Below, in pieces: positions 350 through 4,948 of a stretch of DNA of 64,000 nt. The stretch lies in NCBI RefSeq assembly GCF_000337675.1, contig NZ_AOIB01000016.1, forward strand, positions 75,057 through 139,056, in the 5' to 3' direction. Within the stretch, counting starts at the first letter, position 1. Every line of letters begins with the position of its first letter. The translations under genes were made by a program, and so were the position numbers. Source of the stretch: Natronococcus amylolyticus DSM 10524 (GTDB lineage: Archaea; Halobacteriota; Halobacteria; Halobacteriales; Natrialbaceae). The notes under the pieces were generated by a model. The model ran no database searches and was not told where the DNA came from. It saw only the letters and a program-made list of their open reading frames with translations.

Positions 350-2962
350 TCAGTTCCCGCGAAGCCACGAGAGCGGCTTCGTGACGGCGAGCCGGTAGTC
401 CTCGTGCGGGTCGTACCTCGCGAACGCGAGGCTGTTGGTCATGACGCTGACGCTCGAGGCGGCCATCGCCAGCCCCGCCAGTGCGGGGTTCAGCAGACCG
501 AGCGAGGCGATCGGGATCAGCGTCGTGTTGTAGATAAAGGCCCAGAACAGGTTCTGGCGCACCTTCGAGATCGTCGCCTCGGAGATCCGAACGGCCTTCA
601 GCACGTCTGCGGGATCGTCACGCATCAGGGTGACGTCCGCCGACTCGATGGCGACGTCGGTCCCGGAGCCGATGGCGACACCGACCTGTGCCGTAGTGAG
701 GGCGGGCGCGTCGTTGACGCCGTCCCCGACCATCATCACTCGCGAGCCGTCGTTCTGCAGCGCTTCGACGTGATCCGCCTTGTCTTCGGGCAACACCTCC
801 GCGCGGACGTTGTCGGGGTCGATCCCGACCGCTCGAGCGACCGCCGCCGCGGTGCGCTCGTTGTCGCCGGTGAGCATCACGACCTCGGTCCCGCGCTCTC
901 GCAGCGCCGCGACGGTCTCCGTCGCGCTTTCGCGAACCTCGTCGGCGACGGCGAGAACGCCCACCAGTCGGCCGTCTACCGCGACCGGCATCGCCGTTTT
1001 CCCCTCGCGCTCGAGCCGGATGAGCGTCTCCTCGGCGGGTTCGGTGTCGATCCCCGCGTCCTCGAGCAGCTTCCGACGACCGATCAGAACGCTCCCGCGG
1101 TCGGTTTCCGCTCGAACGCCGTGGCCGGGGACGTTCTCGAACTCGCTGACCTCGCCGATCTCGACGTCCCGATCCGTCGCACCGTCGACGATCGCCCGCG
1201 CGATCGGGTGCTCGGAGCCGGACTCGGCGGTGGCGGCCGCGCCGAGGACGAACGACTCGAGATCCTCCCTGCGCTCGAGTCCCGTCACCGTCCCGCCGTC
1301 CGTCGCCGTCCGCTCGCCGACGAGTTCGAGGTCGGTCAGGGTCATCTCGCCGTGAGTCAGCGTCCCCGTCTTGTCGAAGACGACGGTGTCGATTCCGCGA
1401 ACCTGCTCGAGGACGTCGCCGCCCTTGAACAGGACGCCGTTGGTCGCCGACAGCGTCGAGCCGACCATCGTCGCCGCGGGCGTCGCGAGCCCGAGGGCAC
1501 AGGGACAGGCGATCAACAGCGCCGAGGCGAGCACGACCACGGAGAACTCGAAGACGGGTACGCCGCCGACGACGGGACCCCCGCCGACGGGCTCGAGGAC
1601 GGGAATCCACGAACCGAGCGCCGCGGAGGCGCCGTACAGCGTCTCCGGAAACAGGAACCAGAGGACCGACCAGACGACGGCGTTGACGATCACCGCGGGG
1701 ACGAAGTAGGCGCTGACCCGGTCGACGAGCCGCTGGATCTCGGGCTGGCGGGACTGGGCTTCCTTGACCCGCTCGACGATCTGCTGGATCGCCGTCTCCG
1801 AGCCCACCTTCGTCGCCTCGACCAAGAGAACGCCGTTCTCGTTGATCGTCGAGCCGACGACCTCGTCGCCCTCTCCTTTTTCGACCGGGACGGACTCCCC
1901 GGTCAGCATCGACTCGTCGACCGCGCTCTGGCCCTCGCGGACGACTCCGTCGGTGGGAATCTTCTCGCCGGGTCGAACCTTCAGCACGTCGCCCGGCTCG
2001 ACGTCCTCAAGGGGGACCTGCCGCTCCTCGCCGTCCCGAACGACGGTCGCCTCGTCGGCCTCCATCTCGAGCAGTTCCCGCAGCGCGCTGCCCGCGCGGG
2101 CCTTCGAGCGGACCTCGAGCCAGTTACCGAGCGTGATGAACCAGAGGATGAACGCGACGGCCTCGAAATAGAACCCGCCGGTGATCGCGCCGACGAGCAC
2201 CCCCGTACTGTAGACGTAGCCCGCCGACGTGCCGACGGCGACGAGCGTGTCCATGTTCGCCCGTCGGTTGTTCGAGAACGCCCGCCAGGCGCCGACGATA
2301 AACTCCTTGCCGAGCGTCGCCATCAGGGCCGTCGCGAGGACGAACTCGAGCCAGCCCGGCGGGTGGGCGATCGCCATCGGAACCGGCGAGGCGACGTCGA
2401 CGAATCCGAACAGCATGTCGATCATCATCGGCACGAACGGCACCGTCAGCAGGCCGCCACCGATCACCAGCTTTCGTTGGCGCCGGAGCTCTTTCTCGAC
2501 GGCGCGTTCGCGCTGGCTGGCGCCCTGGCTCTCCTCGAGCTCGTCGCGGACCGGCTCGTAGCCCGATTTTTCGATGGCGTCGACGATCTCCGAAAGTGAA
2601 ACGTCGTTCGGGTTGTACTCGACCCGGGCCTCGTCCGAGGCGAAGTTTACGTCGGCTCGAACCACGCCTGGCAGGTCGGTGACCGCGTCCTCGACGGTTC
2701 CCGAACAGGTCGAACACGACATCCCCATGACGGTCAGCGTCTCCGTCTCCGAGGCGGCTTCGTAGCCCGCGTCGGCGATCGCATCGTAGATCTCGGCCAG
2801 CGACGTCTCCACGGGATCGTACTCGACGGTCCCCTCGTCGGTCGCGTAGTTCGCGCTCGCCGACGCGACCCCCTCGAGATCGCCTACCGCATCCTCGACG
2901 CTCCCCGAACATGTCGAACACGACATGCCGGTGATCTCGAGGTGGGCTCGTCTCGTACTCAT
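350..2962 (-). CDS. copA: Cu+-type P1B ATPase with two HMA domains
   Basis: This is an 870-residue heavy-metal exporting P-type ATPase of the inner (only) membrane. Two N-terminal HMA domains each carry GMSCSTC (Cys 15/18 and 83/86). The core shows TGES (354-357), the CPC metal site (486-488), the phosphorylated DKTGT (530-534), the SEHP loop (583-586) and GDGVND (746-751). The YN in TM7 (811-812) and MAASS in TM8 (833-837) are the pattern of the Cu+/Ag+ group (P1B-1), so copper efflux is the best call. It is the last gene of a same-strand group with a His-rich exported peptide and a membrane winged-helix protein. The ATG at 2962 is followed at once by the HMA domain. No truncation is seen. 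Confidence 0.95.
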
Positions 2963-3016
2963 GGTACTCGATTCTATGGGCTACACGTTCAAGCGGGTTG
3001 TGACTTTGCCACCACG

Positions 3017-3043
3017 AATATATAAACAAATATCTTTCGAAAA
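3017..3043 (-). promoter_or_regulatory. Putative copA promoter with TTTCGAAA palindrome
   Basis: Reading the minus strand, a TTTATATATT element (3018-3027) lies about 60 bases before the copA ATG, so a 5' leader of roughly 30 bases is expected. Directly upstream of it is the 8-base palindrome TTTCGAAA (3035-3042), in the position where an archaeal BRE or an operator would sit. Its use as an operator is inference. Confidence 0.5.
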
Positions 3044-3219
3044 TAAACTAACAGAGGGAGATGAATACGATTGTATAAGCCCTTCCCTCGTTGGGCCACG
3101 TACGTTATCGATCCCTCGAGTTCGATTACAGTCGCGGGGAAGAGCTGCTCATCTCGCTCGTCGGACAACAGTAGCTTCCGCTCGGTCTCGGCGCGTCGGA
3201 CGAAGACGAGCCGGACCGG

Positions 3220-3483
3220 TTAACAGCTACCGGCACCGGCGTGGTGGTTGCCTGGCTCGTGGTCAGCGTGGTGTTCGGCGTGGTTCGCATCGTCGTGGTG
3301 CGCACCGTGATCGTGGTCAGCGTGACCGTCGTGATGCGCATCGTGGTCTCCCATCCGGTCGTTCATCCACTCGATCGCAGCGGCGTCCGCGTTGGCGTCG
3401 TCAGCGCTCACGATCGCCGCGCCGCCGAGCAGTGCGATCACGGCGAGCAGGCCGATCGTCAGTCGTAGCGTCGGTGTTGGCAT
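3220..3483 (-). CDS. Exported histidine-rich miniprotein, putative metal binder
   Basis: An 87-residue protein with a hydrophobic signal-type segment (about residues 6-27, ending near IVSADD). After a short stretch with EWMNDRMG, the remaining 40 or so residues contain 14 histidines, mostly as HH or H spaced by D, A and G, with a terminal Cys. The composition predicts an exported or membrane-anchored binder of Cu, Zn or Ni. It lies 257 bases upstream of copA and 196 bases downstream of a membrane winged-helix gene on the same strand, which suggests a shared role in metal handling. I know no characterised homologue. The reading frame is supported by signal peptide plus consistent composition, not by a conserved domain. 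Confidence 0.7.
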   Translation of the reverse strand: MPTPTLRLTIGLLAVIALLGGAAIVSADDANADAAAIEWMNDRMGDHDAHHDGHADHDHGAHHDDANHAEHHADHEPGNHHAGAGSC

Positions 3484-3679
3484 TGGTCGTCACCTCAGTT
3501 GGGACGAGGGCGGCTCGACGGTTAGCCGCTCGGTCGTGAACTCACTGCGTAGATCGTTCGAGAACGTTTCTAAAGGGTCCTAACCGTTTCCTGGATTCGA
3601 AACCGTTCGTGCGGGGCCCACGCGACGGTCTGAGCCGGATGGCTCGCTTCACCCGAAGACGGTCGGTCAGCGGTCATCG

Positions 3680-4264
3680 TCAGCGCTCCTCGAGGTCGTC
3701 GCTCGGGTAGACGCGGTACGTTCGTCCCTGTGGTTCGCGGTAGAGCAGCCCTCGCTTCTCGAGGTCGGTGACGGTCTGGCTGACCTTGCTCTTCGAGAAG
3801 TCGGCCCGATCTCGGAGTTCGATCTGGGTCAGCCCCGGCGAGTCGACGACGGGTTCCAAGATACGGCGCTCGTCCTCCGGCAGGACGTCCAGCACTCGAG
3901 GGGTCGGCCGGGGGGTTTCGGTCGCCGACTCGGTTCGGGACGGCGACCCTGACCCGACGTCGGCTCGAGATCCGGAGTCGGATTCCGGCTCGGGTTCGGA
4001 TTCGGCCGCTCGAGGCGACGCTCGATGTTCCGTCTCCGCGCCCACCTGCTCTCGAACGATCCAGTACGCGCCGGCGACGACGCCCGCGATGAGGATCGAT
4101 CCGAGCAGGTACACCAACGGGTGCGGGCCGTGAACGGCGGTGTGGCCCATCATCTCGCCGTGAACTTGCGACTGGCGAGAGGTCTGCCAGGCGGCGCCGA
4201 CGCCGAGGACGATGATCCCGGCGACGAAGACGGTGACCACGGCGTCGAGTGTCGTTCGGTCCAC
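3680..4264 (-). CDS. Two-TM membrane protein with cytoplasmic winged helix
   Basis: A 194-residue protein. Two membrane segments (about 7-25 and 49-70) flank a short loop holding H35, M38, M39, H41, H45 and H48. A Ser/Glu-rich linker (75-122) leads to a C-terminal winged helix-turn-helix (about 125-190; LTQIELRDRADFSKSKV, then a LEKRGLLYREPQG wing). The DNA-binding part must face the cytoplasm, so the His/Met loop faces outward. This is the shape of a membrane-tethered one-component regulator. Its position ahead of a His-rich exported peptide and copA makes metal sensing an attractive inference. Winged helices of this kind occur in many haloarchaeal membrane proteins; ligand and target are unknown. 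Confidence 0.75.
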   Translation of the reverse strand: MDRTTLDAVVTVFVAGIIVLGVGAAWQTSRQSQVHGEMMGHTAVHGPHPLVYLLGSILIAGVVAGAYWIVREQVGAETEHRASPRAAESEPEPESDSGSRADVGSGSPSRTESATETPRPTPRVLDVLPEDERRILEPVVDSPGLTQIELRDRADFSKSKVSQTVTDLEKRGLLYREPQGRTYRVYPSDDLEER

Positions 4265-4411: not shown

Positions 4412-4948
4412 GTGTGTGAGAACTATCTTTTCTCGGAAACGACGAGCACGACGTGGCAACCAACAACTCTCTCGGGAGACCGCCCCCTCCTCGAGGCACA
4501 CCGTGCATCGCCCCTCTTTCGAGCCGAACGGTCGAGAAGCGACGGCGGCTGTTCGAACGCCGAGCTGATGCCCGACACCGCCGAGCGGATCACCGAAGGG
4601 GGCGAAACCGGGACGGTTCCGACCGCCAACCTCGAGGAGGACGACCTCGTGCTTGTCCGACCCGGCTCGAACGTTCCCGCCGACGGCGTCGTCGAGGACG
4701 GGGAGTCGAACGATCTCTGGGATGTCGCCCGGCTCGCGCGCCTGAGTCGGAGGAGCTACCGGAAGATGCAGGAGATCATCGCCTGGGCCGCGGGGTACAA
4801 CGTGTTCGCGTTGCCGCTTGCGGCCGGCGTGCTGGCGCCGATCAGCATCCTGCTCTCGCCGGCTGTCGGCGCGGTGCTGATGTCCGCAAGTACGGTGATC
4901 GTGGCGATCAACGCGCAACTGTTTCGGCGGCCGGAGCTCGTTCTCTGA
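4412..4948 (+). pseudogene. Internally deleted CopB-type P1B ATPase remnant
   Basis: From about base 4562 the frame matches the actuator-domain region of CopB-type ATPases ([10 protein letters not shown], then [20 protein letters not shown]). Near base 4712 it jumps from GESN straight to the C-terminal membrane end ([20 protein letters not shown], then [19 protein letters not shown], which carries the MSxST signature of P1B-3 pumps). The whole middle is gone: TGES, CPx helix, DKTGT phosphorylation loop and ATP-binding domain. The fusion stays in frame, so a 178-codon ORF remains, but it cannot be a pump. The first 50 or so codons (4412-4561) show no homology that I recognise. It stands divergent to the winged-helix gene. 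Confidence 0.85.

Follow-up and report, generated by a model that had tools for sequence, protein, structure and literature searches.

The question raised by this locus is whether three neighboring genes, which encode a membrane-anchored winged-helix protein (WH), a small exported His-rich peptide, and a copper-exporting ATPase (CopA), form a common response to copper. The initial annotation of the window (the whole 64-kb stretch of DNA analyzed) had read these same-strand genes as a set of sensor, scavenger, and pump. All three ORFs were confirmed on the minus strand with unchanged coordinates. The features of the locus are as follows.

3680..4264, minus strand: WH, membrane-anchored winged-helix regulator, 194 aa, GTG start (Pfam; homologues in the order)
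4118..4183, minus strand: predicted extracytoplasmic Met/His loop of WH (M38, M39, H41, H45), codons 28–49 (comparison of homologues and paralogues)
3695..3898, minus strand: MarR-like winged helix of WH, codons 123–190 (Pfam, AF2 model, Foldseek with weak E-values)
3520..3610, minus strand: 91-bp control block (nhmmer E 1.7e-18, sole match in the window)
3607–3599, 3588–3580, 3568–3560, and 3558–3550, minus strand: four direct repeats of the block (gap-free alignment of 44 blocks)
3541–3531 and 3526–3520, minus strand: GTTCAC-like and ATAACC-like elements, part of the block, after the repeats
3220..3483, minus strand: exported His-rich peptide, 87 aa (ORF; block context; purifying selection)
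3403–3483, minus strand: likely signal peptide of the latter, residues 1–27 (the peptide has a terminal Cys)
350..2962, minus strand: CopA, copper-exporting ATPase of P1B-1 type, 870 aa (Pfam/NCBIfam and motif; block absent upstream)
4412..4948, plus strand: remnant of a divergent CopB-type (CPH) P1B ATPase gene (tblastn against the intact CopB of locus L034)

The Pfam matches of WH were MarR_2 (36.2 bits; cut-off 27), DUF7343 (31.5; cut-off 27.6), and MarR (24.7; cut-off 24.6), and its PGAP name is ‘MarR family transcriptional regulator’, as for RR_RS01540 on plasmid pNG600 of Haloarcula marismortui. An AF2 model built from 35 homologues showed helices at residues 3–36 and 49–81, disorder at 80–121, and a winged helix at 124–191, with a mean pLDDT of only 65; when this model was compared with the PDB by Foldseek, MarR proteins were ranked at the top with weak E-values. 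The first eight residues of the family contain 31% Lys/Arg versus 4% in the loop, a charge distribution that fits an N-terminus on the inside of the membrane.

To describe conservation, 90 distinct WH sequences were aligned. Met and His make up 14.7% and 6.0% of the loop, against 0.0–0.9% and 0.0–0.8% in the transmembrane segments, the linker, and the winged helix, and the loop is thus the sole Met/His-rich part of the protein. No Cys was found in the compared segments of the 90 homologues. M39 is kept in 89 of the 90 sequences and H45 in 84, whereas positions 38 and 41, where Met and His replace each other, carry one of the two in 85 and 75, respectively. The initial annotation had made its sensor proposal depend on the conservation of this loop, and the loop is retained, with 4–7 Met/His residues in every sequence. 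All six residues that it had pointed out (H35, M38, M39, H41, H45, and H48) are present in the window, and M38, M39, position 41, and H45 proved to be conserved, but H35 (14/90) and H48 (17/90) are lineage-specific.

Clear homologues of WH numbered 36 in 32 of 119 related genomes, and a WH match was found in 121 of the 392 genomes of the order. Together with the confinement of Met/His to the loop, this distribution shows that the observation is not a matter of chance. Eleven paralogues of the same type (two transmembrane segments and a winged helix) were checked, and the loops of the ten in which two transmembrane segments were called hold only 0–2 Met/His residues; a Met/His loop is therefore not a general trait of proteins with this shape but specific to the WH family. 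A search of the phylum returned distant relatives in family f21, which we take to be probably Archaeoglobaceae, most of them with HHMMM-type loops such as THHMMMHSPYY and SHHYMMMGPAYM. Their neighbors, named by reading the sequences, include a P1B ATPase (L207), a His-rich pump N-terminus (L203, L204), and DUF411-like, YHS-like, COXII-like, and Met-rich exported proteins. A sister family of two-transmembrane winged-helix proteins (L068–L070, L211–L218) has a different conserved loop, NPTPVVVSVGxNGxQ...FTYxEV, and is a second predicted family of membrane regulators.

The peptide gene of the window encodes 14 His in the mature part, in agreement with the number given in the initial annotation, and a terminal Cys. 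The small exported His- or Met-rich peptides found behind WH fall into several sequence types, none of which matched a Pfam or NCBIfam family above cut-off. Such a peptide lies directly behind a block at 77 of the 78 distinct WH loci that have a control block nearby. The 77 peptides have a hydrophobic N-terminus and contain, past residue 26, on average 12% His and 8% Met; in 71 of them a Cys, usually the only one, is found among the last four residues. In one type, the mature N-terminus is predicted to be His. The gene is under purifying selection (dN/dS 0.12–0.64 in 13 pairs), which, together with its fixed place behind the block, rules out a spurious GC-rich ORF.

The gap between WH and the peptide gene contains a non-coding block of 91 bp that is practically free of indels across families and usually ends 36–38 bp before the start codon of the peptide. 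It overlaps the region 3484–3570, which the initial annotation had suggested as a possible binding region of WH. The alignment of 44 blocks showed four direct repeats of AACGnTCTC type, the second of which reads AACGnTTAG. Their starts are 19, 20, and 10 bp apart, which puts all four on approximately the same side of the DNA helix. Of repeat bases 1–6, base 5 shows the lowest conservation in copies 1, 2, and 4; in copy 3 it shares this rank with base 1. The repeats are followed by GTTCACACCCA and then GATAACC (block positions 69–90, window 3541–3520), which are conserved to the same degree, and a TATA-like stretch at block positions 38–43 overlaps the third repeat. The paired repeat was found once in the 64-kb window, and a search of the 4.4-Mb genome yielded no site besides the block at 3520–3610, which rules out a general promoter element.

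When the 392 genomes of the order were sorted by the presence of WH and the block, 117 had both, four WH only, four the block only, and 267 neither (Fisher p 2.6e-89, with genomes counted as independent and phylogeny and shared horizontal transfer of the locus ignored). In the four WH-only genomes the WH matches are partial (fragments), and in one block-only genome (G389, locus L196) a diverged match to WH lies at a distance of 1.7 kb. Blocks were located within 1 kb of WH in 93 of 150 cases and within 20 kb in 134. Where insertions separate the peptide from WH, and where the peptide is found kilobases off or on the opposite strand, the block stays with the peptide. Sixteen blocks are distal; 11 of these stand ahead of a peptide of this kind and another ahead of a shortened version of it, while a SHOCT protein and a DUF302 gene each follow one block. 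The co-occurrence of WH and peptide that the initial annotation implied is thus borne out across the order, and the two genes are a deeply conserved two-gene unit of haloarchaea.

Loci in which the block stands ahead of Met-rich membrane proteins of SHOCT type or of a DUF302 gene are L055, L092, L052, L060–L062, L193, and L198. Since they share the upstream block, these SHOCT and DUF302 genes are likely to be copper-response genes as well.

The surroundings of the family point to copper. At 44 of the 90 distinct WH loci a P1B ATPase is located no more than about 6 kb away, compared with roughly 2% expected by our estimate from about six pumps per genome. Other neighbors are plastocyanin-like proteins (cupredoxins), a multicopper oxidase, DUF411, and an ArsP_1 permease with YHS domains, and many loci contain a thioredoxin gene. 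The more regular pump neighbor of WH is not CopA but a CopB of CPH type whose N-terminus is His-rich. In the window it is represented by a remnant in which residues 208–258 are fused to 672–750 (84% and 89% identical to the intact CopB of L034) and residues 1–207 and 259–671 are missing; the intact relatives carry ACPHALG, and the remnant lacks an intact P-type core with CPH. The deletion is shared with G004 (L031), whereas the gene is intact in L034 and broken in L037. CopA itself is a Cu+-type P1B ATPase, as had been annotated: it has two HMA domains, an E1-E2 ATPase domain, ATPase-IB1_Cu and ATPase-IB_hvy matches above cut-off, and ACPCALG, all features of the P1B-1 type.

The possibility exists that WH controls the peptide and CopA as one three-gene response unit. 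The three genes do lie side by side on one strand in the window and in six other loci (L031, L032, L034, L035, L037, L039). However, CopA is on the opposite strand in L036, L038, and L077, and a CopA gene is lacking in the vicinity of most WH loci. The block was absent upstream of CopA in the window and in the genome, and a different motif, about AA.CCGCTTGAACGT, is common to the upstream regions of CopA genes, near their start codon (window 2963–3060), and is possibly the site of another regulator. A TRASH protein of HVO_1752 type is encoded elsewhere in this genome, and in Halobacterium the CopA-like yvgX is reported to be activated by a TRASH-Lrp protein (PMC3600143). Taken together, the missing block, the different motif, and this reported activator suggest that CopA is probably controlled separately, and we regard a three-gene unit as quite unlikely. 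Of the proposed set, the sensor and the scavenger are strongly supported by their order-wide co-occurrence, the conserved loop, the common block, and the copper genes around the family, whereas CopA is not supported as the third member. It is also possible that the signal differs while regulator and operator are the same, i.e. that WH responds to another soft metal such as silver or to oxidation of the loop Met residues by hypochlorite or other oxidants, with the peptide as a general metal or oxidant sink. The Met-rich, Cys-free loop and the thioredoxin genes would suit this, but the pumps and cupredoxins nearby speak for copper, and the conservation of H45, together with the Met/His exchange at positions 38 and 41, fits metal ligation better than Met oxidation. 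We therefore consider a different signal unlikely, if still worth taking seriously.

The block could, in turn, be bound by another regulator and WH be a co-transferred neighbor, e.g. a passenger of a mobile copper island. The locus does move between genera: an identical WH protein occurs at 17 loci (L118–L136) in at least seven haloarchaeal genera, mostly within DNA that is about 99% identical over 5–12 kb. This shared stretch also carries P-type ATPase, permease, peptide, and DUF302 genes and is, judged from this distribution, a recently mobile copper island. Yet WH and the block are likewise paired at chromosomal and multi-copy loci, every WH copy there being accompanied by a separate block (G017, G065), and in two genomes without WH (L190, L191) the peptide behind the block has been lost. 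A mere passenger role of WH is accordingly very improbable. That the block acts as a structured leader in the peptide mRNA and not as a DNA operator appears even more remote. Its conservation stays high almost up to the start codon, which would suit a leader, but RNAalifold found no consensus base pair in the 44 sequences, an Rfam search of the block gave no family above the gathering score, and the spacing of the repeats is close to whole turns of the helix.

We consider it probable that WH is a one-component extracytoplasmic copper sensor that controls a copper-scavenging peptide, with CopA acting in parallel under different control. On the outer side of the membrane WH would detect copper, most likely as Cu(I), its protomers binding the metal via loop positions 38, 39, 41, and 45. 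Copper binding may alter the clustering of the membrane-held winged helices and so change the occupancy of the four same-face repeats, whereby the peptide gene would be turned on, joined in some species by SHOCT, DUF302, and further genes. The exported His/Met-rich peptide with its one terminal Cys would then bind copper at the cell surface, and CopA would provide a parallel defense. The choice of copper over another soft metal or methionine oxidation is suggested by the gene context and the type of ligand. Activation is only slightly favored over relief of repression: every repeat is located ahead of the conserved elements near the start codon, and repression is nearly as likely, since the TATA-like stretch overlapping the third repeat would suit a repressor. 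The wider proposal, that a single-protein extracytoplasmic copper sensor acting on DNA from the membrane is common to Halobacteria and f21, with a four-repeat operator for a secreted scavenging peptide, lies in our judgment a little on the probable side of even.

Extracytoplasmic copper sensing by Met/His is known from the two-component systems CusS/PcoS, which are accompanied by exported His/Met-rich scavengers of PcoE/SilE type. In these systems a kinase acts through a response regulator, whereas WH is one protein without a kinase domain, and no sequence relation between them was found; the likeness of the peptide to PcoE/SilE, also exported and His/Met-rich, is one of composition and does not amount to homology. 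CopY, CsoR, and CueR are soluble one-component copper regulators that sense cytosolic copper via Cys ligands. WH would share with them the one-component copper response, but it is membrane-bound and, unlike CopY with its Cys-rich C-terminal metal site, Cys-free in the compared segments of the 90 homologues. Membrane-bound one-component regulators (TTRs) are known, e.g. ArnR of Sulfolobus (PMC10269533, PMC6396743). WH has their defining features, a predicted DNA-binding domain and two long hydrophobic helices in one chain, and like them it is predicted to act from the membrane. ArnR, however, is described with an N-terminal helix-turn-helix and with other signals, whereas WH has a C-terminal winged helix and a Met/His-rich outside loop, and the text of the TTR survey mentions neither copper nor metal. 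In Halobacterium, the copper activator is an Lrp-TRASH protein, reported as VNG1197C (PMC3600143). This activator and HVO_1752-like proteins take part in haloarchaeal copper regulation, as predicted for WH, but they are cytoplasmic, combine a Cys-based TRASH sensor with an Lrp DNA-binding domain, and control a CopA-type pump; a Pfam search of WH found no kinase, Lrp/AsnC, or TRASH domain.

A literature search of published open-licence papers returned neither a single-chain, copper-tied regulator of the WH shape nor the 91-bp block, and the WH-peptide module appears to be a means, not described before, by which cells detect extracellular copper and respond to it. Copper sensing in haloarchaea is poorly known, and a review of Haloferax mediterranei lists no annotated copper-specific regulator (PMC9240420). 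The module supplies a defined protein, operator, and output gene in cultured strains, which opens the question of whether a one-component archaeal regulator senses copper outside the cell to direct testing. With its four in-phase repeats for a tethered binder on a flexible linker, the operator would be a clean model of how membrane regulators reach DNA.
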